NCBI GenBank assembly: GCA_947174415.1
Contig: CAMWIW010000002.1
Location: 1-64,000, forward strand
Origin: an uncultured Clostridia bacterium
GTDB lineage: Bacteria > Bacillota > Clostridia > Christensenellales > Borkfalkiaceae
DNA: 64,000 nt
Reading direction: 5' to 3'
Positions 7,354-37,208 of the stretch are shown here, piece after piece (within the stretch, counting starts at the first letter, position 1; each line of letters begins with the position of its first letter). The position numbers and the translations under genes are program-made. The notes under the pieces were generated by a model that was not told where the DNA came from, ran no database searches, and was given only the letters and a program-made list of their open reading frames with translations.

Positions 7354-8361
7354 CTAACAGTTAACGGTAGAATTTTTTGCTACAGGAATATATACTTTTT
7401 CCAATGGAATCATTTTTCGATAATTTTCGCTTAATTTTTCGTAATATATCAATATCAGGTCCGCTAAGGTAGGGCCGTCTATACCGCGTATTCTTGGTGT
7501 ATTATCTAAAAATTTTTGAGCGTTTTTTGTATAGTTTGACAATGTAACAAAAAGCCCGTAATCACCTTCACTCATTGCACCCTTCAAAGCTTGTAACGTT
7601 TCCTCTTTTATATCACTGTTCTGACTTTTAACCTGAACGACGATTCTAGGAGGCAACTCATCTTTAAAGGCTTTAATATCTATACCGCTATCTCCGCCAT
7701 GCGGAGACAACTCGGCACGATAACCCATTGCTTTCAGCAAATCAGCTATAAAGTCTTCAAGCCTATAACCTTTTAAATTTTTACTCAGTTCTTTTAAGAT
7801 GTAATCTCTCGTGCCTTCCTTTATATCATCAGCGGTTGCGGCTACAGTCTCGTTTTCTTCATCTGCAGAAGCAAAAATCGGCTTAACGCTTTTATTAGTT
7901 AACGCATCTATAAACTCATCGCTATAATTTCTAACGGTAAAGAAAGACATTGCAGAACCTATTTCATATAACGCTCCTTGCGAAAAAGCCGTTCTCGGCA
8001 AATGCTTAAGCCACCTTACTTTACGTTGCTGCACATATTCCCGAGCCGTATTCTCATACTTATACTCTCCATCTACAATACCAAGGTTTATCATTCTGTT
8101 TGATTTAGACGGATATACAATGTAATCACCAGTCTGCACTTCATAGCAAAAACGATATAGCATGCCTGCACCATTGGCGACGGATTGTTTGGTTTTTCCC
8201 GGATAAGTTTCAGCATATTTGCGTTTGAATGCTTCTCGGTTGTTTTCTATATGCGATAAATCGCCCATTGCTTTCCAACCGATTGCTATAATATTATCTT
8301 TTAAAAACAGATTATCGTCTTGTGTATGTATTCCCCAAATTCTTTTTTCTTCTGTTCTCAT
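7354..8361 (-). CDS. Mrr-type restriction endonuclease (candidate type IV)
   Basis: A 335-residue protein. The C-terminal third is an Mrr-family PD-(D/E)xK nuclease: Glu202 in YRLEDFIADLL, Asp228 in HGGDSGIDIK and the Gln243-x-Lys245 of VVQVKSQ form the active site. The N-terminal half (about 1-155) has the W-x-I-H start, a GDYIVYPSKS strand and GIVDGEY, which resemble PUA/EVE-like modified-base readers; that assignment is inference. Such fusions usually cut foreign DNA carrying modified bases. AAGGTGG precedes the ATG. No methyltransferase is adjacent, as expected for type IV. The gene is AT-richer than its neighbours, which together with its isolated position hints at transfer. Confidence 0.8.
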   Translation of the reverse strand: MRTEEKRIWGIHTQDDNLFLKDNIIAIGWKAMGDLSHIENNREAFKRKYAETYPGKTKQSVANGAGMLYRFCYEVQTGDYIVYPSKSNRMINLGIVDGEYKYENTAREYVQQRKVRWLKHLPRTAFSQGALYEIGSAMSFFTVRNYSDEFIDALTNKSVKPIFASADEENETVAATADDIKEGTRDYILKELSKNLKGYRLEDFIADLLKAMGYRAELSPHGGDSGIDIKAFKDELPPRIVVQVKSQNSDIKEETLQALKGAMSEGDYGLFVTLSNYTKNAQKFLDNTPRIRGIDGPTLADLILIYYEKLSENYRKMIPLEKVYIPVAKNSTVNC

Positions 8362-12859: not shown

Positions 12860-13210
12860 TTATAACTTGACACCTATAACGTTGACGTTCACGGTGTCTA
12901 CAATCATACCCGTGAACTTTTCAACTTTGTATTTGACGCCCTCTTTAAGGGACTCGGCAACGGCGTTAATCGATACGCCGTATTTTATTATAACGTTGAC
13001 GTCGATAAAAATTCTGTCGCCTGAGGTTACTACCTTAATTCCTCTGCCGTCGGGTTGTTTCTTCAACAGCTCGGAGAGAGAGTCGGTAAGTTTGCGGGAG
13101 CTTGTGTCCACGATGCCGTAACATTCGAGGGCAGCATTTTTAGCCACCTTTGCGATGGCTGAATCGGATATTGAAATTTTACCGAATACGTTGCTGGTGT
13201 TGACGGACAT
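12860..13210 (-). CDS. Asp23/Gls24 family protein (YloU-like)
   Basis: The 116-residue protein has the Asp23 pattern: ISISDSAIAKVAKNAALECYGI at 12-33, then GIKVVTSGDRIFIDVNVIIKYGVSI and a C-terminal VDTVNVNVIGV strand. Asp23 proteins associate with the membrane or cell envelope and respond to alkaline or wall stress in some Firmicutes. GGGAGA precedes the ATG. It heads the asp23-yloV-recG unit. Confidence 0.92.
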   Translation of the reverse strand: MSVNTSNVFGKISISDSAIAKVAKNAALECYGIVDTSSRKLTDSLSELLKKQPDGRGIKVVTSGDRIFIDVNVIIKYGVSINAVAESLKEGVKYKVEKFTGMIVDTVNVNVIGVKL

Positions 13211-13435: not shown

Positions 13436-13523
13436 TATTTAGCCGCTTTTGAAAAACGGCTTTATTTTGTCAGCTTTTTACTGAAAATGCGTGATGCATT
13501 ATACCTATTCGGAGGTGTTAGAT

Positions 13524-13706
13524 ATGTCGAGAGTATGCACAGTCTGCGGAAAAGGTCAGACCACGGGCAACAACGTGAGCCACTCTAAGAGAAGAACGAG
13601 AAGAACGTTTAAAGCAAACGTTCAGAAAGTTTCCTACGTAAACGACGGAAAGGTCGTTACGGGTTACGTTTGCACGAGATGCCTTAAATCCGTTGAAAGA
13701 GCGTAA
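13524..13706 (+). CDS. rpmB: 50S ribosomal protein L28
   Basis: The 60-residue protein starts [27 protein letters not shown] and carries the two CxxC pairs of zinc-binding L28 (CTVCG and CTRCL). The start at 13524 has GGAGGTG upstream at 13511-13517; an in-frame ATG pair at 13491 is rejected for lack of a ribosome site and family start. It is transcribed opposite to the surrounding operons. Confidence 0.97.
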
Positions 13707-13791: not shown

Positions 13792-14733
13792 TTAACCGCA
13801 AACTTCTTTAAATACTCTTAAAAAGTTTTTATAAGCTAATTTTTCTACCGTCTTGTACGGTATAGCGTTTTCTTCAAAATAGTTTAAAAGCGCGGGCACG
13901 CGAGTGCAATCGGGAAGTTCGGGATTTTGGGGGATACCGTCAAAGTCCGAGCCGAGTGCTATAACTTCCTCGCCGCCTATCTTAATAATATGAAGAGCGT
14001 GTTTTAAAGCGTAGCCGAAAGCGGGCGCACCCAAAAAATCTTTACAGAAATTAATGCCTATTACGCCGCCGCAGTCGGCGATTTTTTTTATTAAATCGTC
14101 TGAAAGATTGCGGCTGACGTCAACAACGCTTTGCGCGTTGGAGTGGCTGGCGACTATCGGAATTTTTCTGCCGTTTAAAATATCGTGCGCGCCACCGTCC
14201 GAAAGGTGAGAAACGTCAACGATAATTTTATTACAATCAAGACGCTCGACGGCCTCTTTACCGAGGTCGGTAAGCCCCTCGTCCACTCTTTGTCCGAACT
14301 GCGGCAAGCCGTCTTTAAATACAAGATTGGGGCTAGCGAATTGATTTTTATTATTCCACACTAATGACGCCATCTTAACGCCTTCATTTTTCAGACGGTC
14401 TATCATTTCAAGGTCAGAACCTATAAAGCCGAGGTTTTCAACCGTGAGAATACAACCCACCTTGCCCTCTTCTTCACACCGCAAAATATCGTTATAATTT
14501 TCAATTGGTGTGGCAATATGCCTTAGTTTCGGCATGTTTTGCTTATAAAAGGCAAGATATCTTTCAAAGTTAAAAGCAGCATCAGCGCCCTCCGTAAAAA
14601 TGGCAAAGCACTGTGCCGCACAATTGCTTTTTTGAAGCTTGTTTAAGCTTGTTTGTCCGTTGAACCACTCTAAGTCTACGCCACTGTCCGCACAGACAGT
14701 GAGCGTATCGGAGTGCATATCGGTGTAAATCAT
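13792..14733 (-). CDS. Membrane dipeptidase (peptidase family M19)
   Basis: A 313-residue zinc dipeptidase of the renal-dipeptidase fold. Metal ligands are visible as HSD in YTDMHSDTL (residues 3-10), the bridging Glu in VENLGFIG (about 119), His residues in VDVSHLSDGG and VASHSNAQS, and Asp in ALGSDFDGIP. It probably hydrolyses dipeptides, perhaps D-amino-acid-containing ones from wall turnover. No signal peptide is seen, so it is cytoplasmic. Its ATG overlaps the TGA of the SpoVM-like ORF (ATGA), and it has no Shine-Dalgarno of its own, so translation is coupled to spoVM. In Bacillus this position is occupied by rpmB, so the gene is an insertion relative to that order. Confidence 0.9.
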   Translation of the reverse strand: MIYTDMHSDTLTVCADSGVDLEWFNGQTSLNKLQKSNCAAQCFAIFTEGADAAFNFERYLAFYKQNMPKLRHIATPIENYNDILRCEEEGKVGCILTVENLGFIGSDLEMIDRLKNEGVKMASLVWNNKNQFASPNLVFKDGLPQFGQRVDEGLTDLGKEAVERLDCNKIIVDVSHLSDGGAHDILNGRKIPIVASHSNAQSVVDVSRNLSDDLIKKIADCGGVIGINFCKDFLGAPAFGYALKHALHIIKIGGEEVIALGSDFDGIPQNPELPDCTRVPALLNYFEENAIPYKTVEKLAYKNFLRVFKEVCG

Positions 14734-14798
14734 TTTCTAATAAACAGCCTTAAAATTTTCCTTATAGCTTTTGGCGGTTTTACACAGATTACAGTCAT
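14730..14798 (-). CDS. spoVM: SpoVM-like amphipathic sporulation peptide (22 aa)
   Basis: A 22-codon ORF with AAGGGGTG five bases upstream of its ATG. It begins MTVICVKPPKAIRKILR and ends in LFIRK. Aligned without gaps to Bacillus subtilis SpoVM (MKFYTIKLPKFLGGIVR...), it shares Met1, Lys7, Pro9, Lys10, Ile15 and Arg17 plus the hydrophobic pattern; Bacillus SpoVM is 26 residues. The gene lies 53 bp after rpe and before rpmB, the same neighbourhood spoVM has in Bacillus. SpoVM is an amphipathic helix that marks the convex forespore membrane and anchors SpoIVA at the start of coat assembly. A -10-like CATATAAT (14831-14824) lies upstream without a clear -35. Differences such as Pro8 and Arg13-Lys14 replacing Leu and Gly-Gly are notable. 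Its stop overlaps the dipeptidase start. Confidence 0.75.
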   Translation of the reverse strand: MTVICVKPPKAIRKILRLFIRK

Positions 14799-14851
14799 CG
14801 TTCACCCCTTGAAATTATGGTACATTATATGCGGTGAACGGTAAATACGTG

Positions 14852-15517
14852 CTAACCCCTTATTTTTTCGATTGCAACAGCCATATCGGGCGATTTGAAG
14901 ACAGCAGAGCCCGCAACGAGAACGTTTGCCCCCGCTTCTCTTATTATTTGGGCGTTTTCTTCGGTAACGCCGCCGTCGATTTCTATATCCATATCGGGAC
15001 GACCGATTTCAATAGCGTAAGCGCGCGCCTTTCTGACCTTTTCCAAAACGTCGGGAATGAACTTCTGACCGCCGTAACCGGGGTATACGGACATCAAAAG
15101 AACCATATCGCACAGCGGGAAAACGGGAAAGATATTTTCGACGGGGACATCGGGATTGACGACCGCGCCGCACTTGACTCCGTAGGACTTAATTAGGCGC
15201 AAGGTTTCTTCGAGATAGGTATCGGAAATTTTTTTGCAAGCCTTATAATGTACCGTTATAATATCCGCGCCAGCGTCTGCAAAGAACTTTATCTGTGTTT
15301 TGGGGTGTTCAATCATAAGATGTGCGTCCAAAGGAAGCTTCGTTAAGGGACGGATATTTTTTATCATTTGTCCGCCAAAGGTTATCGGCTCGACAAAGCT
15401 TCCGTCCATAACGTCGCAGTGAATTAAGTCTGCGCCGCATTTTTCCAACTTTTTGATGGTTTCGCCCATAACAGAGAAGTCCGCCGAAAGTATCGAGGGC
15501 GCGATTTTGATTTGCAT
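14852..15517 (-). CDS. rpe: Ribulose-phosphate 3-epimerase
   Basis: The 221-residue TIM barrel interconverts ribulose-5-P and xylulose-5-P in the pentose phosphate pathway. Visible motifs are APSILSADF (6-14), HCDVMDGSFV with metal-binding His/Asp, LDAHLMIEHP, MSVYPGYGGQKFI and EIDGGVTEENA with the catalytic Asp, and VAGSAVFKSPD. It follows rlmN by 11 bp; the prpC-prkC-rsgA genes that separate these two in Bacillus are missing here. Confidence 0.98.
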   Translation of the reverse strand: MQIKIAPSILSADFSVMGETIKKLEKCGADLIHCDVMDGSFVEPITFGGQMIKNIRPLTKLPLDAHLMIEHPKTQIKFFADAGADIITVHYKACKKISDTYLEETLRLIKSYGVKCGAVVNPDVPVENIFPVFPLCDMVLLMSVYPGYGGQKFIPDVLEKVRKARAYAIEIGRPDMDIEIDGGVTEENAQIIREAGANVLVAGSAVFKSPDMAVAIEKIRG

Positions 15518-36205: not shown

Positions 36206-36224
36206 GAAAGTACAATTTAAAGTT

Positions 36225-36336
36225 GTTCTTTGGGGCGGGGTGAAATTCCCCACCGGCAGTAAAGTCTGCGAAGAGCGAAAGCTCCCGAACGGGTGAAATT
36301 CCCGTACCGACGGTAAAGTCCGGATGTGAAAAGAAC
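36225..36336 (+). ncRNA. FMN riboswitch (RFN element)
   Basis: The P1 stem GTTCTT (36225-36230)/AAGAAC (36331-36336) encloses the conserved core: GGGGTGAAATTCCCCACCGG, CAGTAAAGTCTGCGAAG, CGGGTGAAATTCCCGTACCG and GGTAAAGTCCGGATG. It binds FMN and controls ribU. A terminator stem follows. Confidence 0.97.
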
Positions 36337-36362
36337 TTATAATGCGGTTTATAATATCGTTT

Positions 36363-36396
36363 TGCGCCCCAAATGTTTATTTTGGGCGCATTTTTT
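36363..36396 (+). terminator. FMN riboswitch expression-platform terminator
   Basis: TGCGCCC-AAA pairs with TTT-GGGCGCA, then T6, so FMN binding probably ends transcription before ribU. Confidence 0.85.
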
Positions 36397-36443
36397 ATAC
36401 AGAGAACGGCTTTGAAAATATTTTTTACGAGGTGTTTTTTTGT

Positions 36444-37208
36444 ATGGAACAGGTTTCAACTTCACGGCGCGGATATTTTAATTCCGCAAGAATAGCGGTC
36501 ATCGCTATGTTTTCTTCGCTTGCGGGGATATTGTACATATTCAATTTCTCAATGTCCTTTGCATTCCCGAGCTTTCTCGAATTCAACTTTTCGGATATTC
36601 CGACGCTTATCGGTTCGTTCACGTTAGGACCTGTGGCGGGCGTAATTATCTCGGTTATAAAAATTCTTTTAAAGCTAGTGTTTAAAGGAACTTCGACGGT
36701 ATTCGTCGGGGAGCTTTCCGACCTTGTAACCTCTTGCGTGTTTGCCGTAACGGCAGGACTGATTTACAAAAAGAAACGCACTTTCAAGGGCGCACTGATA
36801 GGCATGGCTGTGGGAACGGCAGCGGAAGTTGTGGTTGCAATAATTTTCAACTGGTTGGTTTTAGTGCCGTTCTACGTTCAGTTCTTCTTCCACGGAAGTT
36901 GGCAACCCCTTATCGGAATGATGACCCCGCTTTTCCCCGATTGCACCAAGGAAAATTTTTACAACTTCTATCTTTGGGTTTCGATACTGCCCTTTAACCT
37001 ATTGCGCTGTCTTGTTGCCGTGCTGGTTACGCTGCCCGTCTACAAACGCATATCTAACCTTATTAACAAATTCAATGCAAAGATTACACCGAAAGAGGAT
37101 GAAAGCGGCGAAAAGACGAGGAAGATTAATATCGGCGCAATCGTAGCGGGCGCTGTAATCGTTGCGCTTTTAGTACTGTTTGCACTGCTAAGATATTTCG
37201 TTTTTTGA
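36444..37208 (+). CDS. ribU: Riboflavin ECF transporter S-component
   Basis: 254 residues with about six TM segments. The start at 36444 has GAGGTG upstream; the open frame extends back into the riboswitch. FPSFLEFNFSDIPTLIGSFTLGPVAGVIIS is the RibU signature region, and an FMN riboswitch controls it, which together identify riboflavin as substrate. The C-terminus has an extra Lys/Glu-rich loop and a final TM helix (about 228-252). Confidence 0.93.
   Translation: MEQVSTSRRGYFNSARIAVIAMFSSLAGILYIFNFSMSFAFPSFLEFNFSDIPTLIGSFTLGPVAGVIISVIKILLKLVFKGTSTVFVGELSDLVTSCVFAVTAGLIYKKKRTFKGALIGMAVGTAAEVVVAIIFNWLVLVPFYVQFFFHGSWQPLIGMMTPLFPDCTKENFYNFYLWVSILPFNLLRCLVAVLVTLPVYKRISNLINKFNAKITPKEDESGEKTRKINIGAIVAGAVIVALLVLFALLRYFVF

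Follow-up and report, generated by a model that had tools for sequence, protein, structure and literature searches.

The window, by which we mean the whole stretch of 64,000 nucleotides that was analysed, contains on its minus strand a 22-codon open reading frame (14798-14730) that is very probably the spoVM gene of this genome in a divergent form. The encoded peptide is conserved among relatives, syntenic, amphipathic and cationic, carries a proline (P9) at the position of the SpoVM kink and is by its sequence related to the SpoVM peptides of clostridia. The earlier note on this DNA had reported a 22-codon ORF with a strong ribosome site, and this is confirmed, AAGGGGTG lying upstream of the ATG; a G-rich Shine-Dalgarno sequence also precedes the peptide gene in relatives. 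The features of the locus are the following:

14730..14798, minus strand: spoVM orthologue (very probable), 22 codons plus TGA, peptide MTVICVKPPKAIRKILRLFIRK
14803..14810, minus strand: ribosome-binding site AAGGGGTG, 5-12 nt before the spoVM ATG
14824..14831, minus strand: -10-like element CATATAAT of a putative sigma-K/E-type mother-cell promoter, found in 18/20 distinct thiN-less loci
14848..14851, minus strand: -35-like CACG, immediately following the rpe stop at a distance of 16 nt from the -10 element; several relatives have AACC, which matches better
14852..15517, minus strand: rpe, the upstream gene (TIGR01163, 256 bits versus a cut-off of 212.6)
13792..14733, minus strand: M19 dipeptidase (PF01244, 231.8 bits versus a cut-off of 26), its start overlapped by the spoVM stop
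13491..13706, plus strand: rpmB (L28; TIGR00009, 73 bits), convergent with the spoVM block
12860..13210, minus strand: Asp23/YloU-like gene, named by reading the sequence from an AmaP match below cut-off and from synteny

How can so short an ORF be recognised as a gene? NCBIfam and Pfam searches gave no match to the window peptide, and the evidence comes from relatives. A search for the dipeptidase, run on this genome and on those of 60 relatives (36 from the same genus), matched in 37/61 genomes. In all 24 same-genus loci fetched by means of the dipeptidase (L003-L026, among 30 loci fetched) rpe adjoins the dipeptidase, and a peptide orthologue of 21-28 codons lies just upstream of the dipeptidase in the same 24 loci. 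A profile of 23 peptides finds the ORF at E 1e-3 in 35/37 same-genus genomes, the own genome included, it being understood that 16 of the 23 profile rows come from those 37 genomes. Since relatives share ancestry, counts across them overstate independence throughout. Moreover, summed over all pairs of 55 distinct 22-codon sequences, 9,970 synonymous codon differences stand against 10,081 nonsynonymous ones, a synonymous share of 50% as compared to 23% for random point changes, the pairs not being independent; for codons 10-22 alone the share is 41% versus 22%. This motif-free count replaced a first one on 50 sequences (8,495 synonymous, 7,397 not), which was biased to synonymous differences because it was restricted to peptides with the motif MT[IV]IC[IV]KPP. 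Judged by synteny in relatives and by the synonymous excess, the ORF is a real gene and not a product of chance.

In Bacillus, spoVM lies between rpe and rpmB, and the earlier note had placed the window ORF in the same position. The gene is indeed found between rpe and rpmB, with rpe upstream as in Bacillus and, in many relatives, thiN in between, but rpmB is on the opposite strand and the dipeptidase is inserted before it, and the Bacillus gene order is therefore altered. The window itself has no thiN; many relatives have it after rpe. The order kept among relatives is rlmN-rpe-(thiN)-peptide-(dipeptidase)-rpmB-asp23-dak, the gene next to the Asp23-like gene being DAK/FakA-like, a name taken from sequence and gene order. 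A wider set of 64 loci came from a scan of named genomes; most of the assemblies bear the title uncultured Clostridia or Clostridiales, and there is one Candidatus Coproplasma, which NCBI places in Clostridia, and one Christensenella sp.; we infer the order name Christensenellales for these relatives. The peptide was recognised by a sequence pattern in 63 of these loci, in 62 of which rpe is on the peptide's strand; rpmB is on the opposite strand in 42/63, and for the other 21 none was found within the fetched stretch. The locus sets overlap, having contigs in common.

The residues M1, K7, P9, K10, I15 and R17, singled out in the earlier note, are common to the window peptide and the Bacillus subtilis SpoVM chain 2mvh, which is likewise a short amphipathic peptide. 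An alignment with clostridial SpoVMs had also been suggested, and it bears out the relationship. On a position matrix built from 21 SpoVMs of other orders (out of 30 loci; ungapped from Met1, position 1 skipped) the window peptide scores 24.5 bits, a value reached by 0/20,000 shuffles, and comes out top among the 1,275 small-ORF starts of the window, the runner-up scoring -4.2. As a consequence of this design, peptides that are extended at the N-terminus score badly; L018 obtains -28.7, with 40% of shuffles equal or better, and L020 8.1, with 0.015% of shuffles. In an hhalign comparison the genus peptides align with 19 of those other-order SpoVMs over all 22 positions at a probability of 94.8 and E = 5.5e-8. 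The matrix and the profile-profile test were made because the circularity of the 23-row profile had to be avoided: its best PDB match is 2mvh, 'Stage V sporulation protein M' (E 0.0015, positions 1-20), a match that is partly circular because 7/23 rows were found with a SpoVM model and that is not used alone. Searched against the PDB, a genus-only peptide profile did not find SpoVM.

Automatic annotation does not pick up the peptide. The NCBIfam SpoVM_broad model does not match it even at E 10; at that threshold the genome yields three weak matches to the NCBIfam SpoVM model, all of them away from the window ORF, and the curated cut-off of 31 bits is not reached. Applied to 293 genomes of the class, the NCBIfam SpoVM model matches at E 0.01 in 104 and above cut-off in only 11/293. 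This cut-off is an automatic label and not a biological definition, and the peptide is assigned to SpoVM by orthology. The same model matches order-level relatives below 31 bits (29.6 in G047, whose intermediate peptide is MRFYCIKLPRFV, 23.3 in G054 and 19.7 in G060); MKIYCFKAPRFI and MKIICIKPPKII are further order-level intermediates, and weakly matched relatives have their peptides after rpe or thiN (MRFYCIKLPRFVGAVIRFVLGK..., MKIYCFKAPRFIKAILRIFKRA, MKIVCVKPPRFLRAILRLFVRG, MKIICIKPPKIIRGILRLIFRKQLN). Going by their sequences, these order-level peptides form a chain that links canonical SpoVM to the window peptide.

Which residues are kept and which have changed? C5, K7, P8, P9, R13 and L16 are invariant in a 25-row genus alignment, and both Pro9 (25/25 and 23/23) and Cys5 are found in every row of this alignment and of the wider 23-row alignment. 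Pro9 is described as the only residue conserved in all SpoVM homologues of Fig. 1 of PMC5607322 and as needed for curvature sensing. With clostridial SpoVM (NF033436; C. difficile SpoVM, PMC5607322) the window peptide shares the core M-x-[IV]-x-x-[IV]-K-x-P-[KR] and a helix with L and R/K, but it has Cys5 where the fetched other-order SpoVMs have V, I or A, and the curated model does not match it. Compared to the B. subtilis peptide it is shorter, 22 instead of 26 residues, and has T2 for K2, C5 for T5, P8 for L8 and R13-K14 for G13-G14. Three of the residues to which functions have been ascribed can be compared: I6, reported to be needed for SpoIVA binding (PMC5607322), is conservatively replaced by V6, I15 is kept, and K2 is replaced by T2. 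According to the same source mutation of K2 or I15 triggers the CmpA checkpoint, and loss of K2 in Bacillus blocks cortex formation. As the quality-control pathway is stated to be conserved only in Bacillales (PMC7549369), the loss of K2 in the window peptide would fit. A short amphipathic helix following Pro9 is predicted, the hydrophobic moment of residues 10-22 being 0.90, with 1.6% of shuffles as high (calculation only).

As a finding that would speak against SpoVM, the earlier note had named in advance a genome without spoIVA or other sporulation genes and an ORF without conservation in relatives. What was found is that spoIVA, spo0A and sigK are present and that the ORF recurs in 35/37 same-genus genomes. 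In the own genome SpoIVA is full length (G000:C6:31747-33219, 597 bits versus a cut-off of 459.9), Spo0A scores 231 bits (cut-off 200) and sigma-K 302.8 bits (cut-off 298.65), and a second, lower match of the sigma-K model at 259 bits fits sigma-E. SpoIVB, with 301.3 bits, is just below its cut-off of 305.25, and a single frame of 507 codons carries two SipL-type domains, with 23.0 and 22.6 against a cut-off of 23.6. From this gene content the organism of the window is predicted to be able to form spores.

The distribution of the peptide was compared with that of sporulation genes. At a profile threshold of E 1e-3 it is present in 47/61 genomes, 23 of which supplied profile rows, as compared to 0/61 with the curated SpoVM model above cut-off, and the 23-row alignment could serve as a marker for spore formation in metagenome genomes. 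The peptide occurs in 47/56 genomes with a sigma-K-type match (E 1e-60) and in 0/5 without (Fisher p 3.4e-4); the label is loose and means a mother-cell-type sigma factor, since a threshold of E 1e-60 probably lets sigma-E through as well, 29/61 genomes passing the model's own cut-off. The same five genomes lack SpoIVA as well as the peptide. With SpoIVA as label, the peptide is found in 44/53 positive versus 3/8 negative genomes (Fisher p 0.012), leaving as exceptions 9/53 SpoIVA-positive genomes without peptide at E 1e-3 and three SpoIVA-negative genomes with it, two of which are split over about 300 and 360 contigs, while the third is 74% complete. Two weaker peptide matches, at E 0.0036 and 0.043, are left out of the count; they lie just after rpe, and one of them is then followed by rpmB. 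G028, 76% complete, has no peptide at E 1e-3, and no rpe was found in it. In the congener G024, 93% complete, nothing matches SpoIVA, sigma-K, SpoIVB, SipL or the peptide, and Spo0A is not found above cut-off; the G024 locus (L242) has rpe and thiN and no SpoVM-like ORF after them. G024 is thus a natural control for the co-loss of peptide and sporulation genes.

Upstream of the gene lies a putative mother-cell promoter. After loci with identical 120 nt upstream had been dropped, 82 loci were compared with a pattern that also allowed CATATATA and CATATATT. In the 18/20 distinct thiN-less loci with a match, CATATAAT (once CATACAAT, once CATATATA) stands 27-53 nt before the ATG, usually with AACC, CACC, ACAC or similar 16 nt upstream of the box as judged by eye. 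In 46/62 loci with thiN, CATATAAT or CATATATT is located inside thiN, 149-196 nt before the ATG; 16/62 have no match to the box, AATATAAT and CATATACT variants being among them. Inside thiN the box is encoded by a His-Ile pair with fixed codons: Ile is ATA in 56/56 cases versus 447/897 for the other Ile codons of the same thiN genes, His is CAT in 52/52 versus 63/148 elsewhere in thiN genes, and the third base of the preceding codon is G in 51/56. This codon count dropped 7/63 thiN genes in which the protein pattern was not matched, four with ATA and three of other families without it, the embedded site being absent from these three. In G024, where thiN has Ser-Ile with ATT at this pair, the embedded CATATAAT site is gone. 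A site kept inside the thiN frame would show a 22-codon gene being regulated with almost no intergenic space.

Sigma-E and sigma-K are reported to share -10 boxes and to differ at -35, with ATA or AC, respectively, and the C. difficile sigma-K promoter is given as -10 CATATAAT and -35 AC (PMC3789822). On these descriptions the site upstream of spoVM is best read as a putative mother-cell promoter that by its -35 AC is closer to sigma-K than to sigma-E, although the spoVM gene of C. difficile is reported to be sigma-E-dependent (PMC5607322). Sigma-A was also considered because CATATAAT contains TATAAT. It is a conceivable but less probable reader of the site, since a conserved GCA precedes and AC at 16 nt replaces a TTGACA-like -35. 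When the stretches before spoIVA were searched for CATA boxes, 19/34 loci showed a pattern of another and less regular kind, and many spoIVA genes (L158, L172, L221-L239) have a common AATAAGTTATTATACACATAG-like upstream stretch, unlike the promoter-like site of spoVM.

The gene downstream encodes a peptidase of the M19 family, related to the renal-type enzymes 3ly0, 3fdg and 1itq in the PDB and containing HxD, E, SHL, SHSN and GSDFDG, which we take to be the M19 metal-site motifs. The earlier note had called it a membrane dipeptidase, of which the family assignment stands; 'membrane' is only the family name; the protein starts MIYTDMHSDT and, in distinction from the renal-type enzymes, has no visible signal or membrane anchor. 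Without a visible hydrophobic leader it looks cytosolic. The coupling through ATGA (14733-14730), in which the spoVM TGA overlaps the dipeptidase ATG, is present as the earlier note had it and kept in part of the genus, but it is lineage-bound: in the same-genus loci, chosen for having the dipeptidase, the two genes overlap in 16/24 and lie within 35 nt in 24/24, and in the wider set the dipeptidase stands beside the peptide in 50/63 loci, 38 of them overlapping. It could be imagined that the peptide is a leader ORF, serving only for translational coupling to the dipeptidase gene. These overlaps would suit such a role, as would the fact that by eye no separate ribosome site is obvious for the dipeptidase. 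Yet no dipeptidase was found beside the peptide in 13/63 loci of the wider set and in 20/21 further loci (the two sets sharing at least five contigs; the exception, L034, is of another family), so that SpoVM does not require the coupling. Furthermore, it is the amino acids that are conserved and not length alone, the peptide resembles SpoVM in matrix and profile-profile comparisons, and in G024 it is absent along with the sporulation genes. A mere leader is accordingly very improbable.

Equally improbable is some other cationic, membrane-active peptide, a toxin or an antimicrobial, that would be SpoVM-like by composition. Seven K/R, no D/E and an amphipathic character are what such a peptide would have, but the position-specific score is above that of 20,000 composition-preserving shuffles, the gene is fixed after rpe or thiN, and it is lost together with the sigma-K-type match. 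Chance alone could have produced an ORF of this short length in the intergenic gap, and the lack of a curated family match would be in line with that; conservation, synteny and codon pattern are all contrary, and we regard this explanation as refuted, with hardly any probability left to it. A divergent SpoVM thus remains as the reading to be preferred.

By analogy with SpoVM elsewhere, a mother-cell sigma factor would start transcription at CATATAAT during sporulation, just after rpe in the window and inside thiN in most of the thiN-bearing relatives examined. The peptide would then take the form of a kinked amphipathic helix lying in the outer membrane of the forespore, recognise the convex curvature of that membrane and recruit SpoIVA, which in turn would build the base of the coat. 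Through the stop-start overlap the dipeptidase would be a translational passenger here, and the mother cell would simultaneously produce some of it. The earlier note had speculated that coat assembly might be linked with peptide turnover; a recycling of peptides in the mother cell by the dipeptidase is a guess.

SpoVM is described as rarely recognised in annotation and as not found in some spore-forming clostridia, and distant versions of it have been asked about (PMC3533761). The window peptide is very probably such a distant SpoVM, one that synteny brought to light in uncultured gut Clostridia. The new details are Cys5, constant in the peptides of the order, which offers a Cys5 subfamily of SpoVM for testing, the mother-cell-sigma-like promoter often located inside thiN, and the lineage-specific coupling to a dipeptidase. 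Literature searches on SpoVM (with rpmB/dipeptidase, Christensenella, small proteins) and on membrane dipeptidase in sporulation returned no description of these points in titles or abstract openings among the matches listed, which mostly lay outside subscription journals.

The partner protein SpoIVA shows an unexpected variation among congeners. In 12 same-genus genomes (G001, G002, G003, G014, G015, G026, G028-G032, G035) SpoIVA lacks the P-loop ATPase region, its profile being matched only from residue 149-222 onward (L159-L170). The 12 frames, shorter by some 110-130 residues, are open, have a normal SpoIVA start and contain no GxxxxGK[ST], and a split-off ATPase domain, searched for as a second SpoIVA match at E 1e-3, was found in none of the 12. 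In a tree of the C-terminal part of SpoIVA (34/36 rows, two being without a frame by the pattern used) the short forms make up two groups, of 5 and 7, and well-supported branches force two changes. In one of these ATPase-less clades, 6/7 genomes have SpoVM peptides (L018, L019, L174, L175, L176, L181) that are lengthened by MNK, MNR, MKK or more ahead of the usual start, the start codons having been chosen by hand. Spo0A is above cut-off in all 12, SpoIVB matches at E 1e-80 or better in 11 (the G028 match runs across two stops), SipL has a match in 9, and the SpoVM peptide is present in 11.

ATP hydrolysis by SpoIVA is reported to be required in B. subtilis, and C. difficile to tolerate mutation of the ATPase motif far better (PMC7549369). 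It is possible, at slightly less than an even chance in our estimate, that in this genus the coat base can form without nucleotide hydrolysis, SpoVM on the curved membrane and not ATP-driven polymerisation directing the assembly, with the window species and its full ATPase representing the ancestral state. Searches on SpoIVA ATPase, metagenomes and a missing Walker A gave no description of an ATPase-less SpoIVA in titles or abstract openings among the matches listed. The ATPase-less SpoIVA of close relatives makes the need for ATP hydrolysis by SpoIVA directly testable.

Two further features of the window are recorded. An FMN riboswitch (RF00050, 110 bits) stands directly before the gene for an ECF transporter substrate-binding protein (36222-37208, plus strand), which is probably a riboflavin transporter, and a Mrr-type restriction endonuclease domain protein (7354-8361, minus strand) is encoded amid an otherwise housekeeping region.
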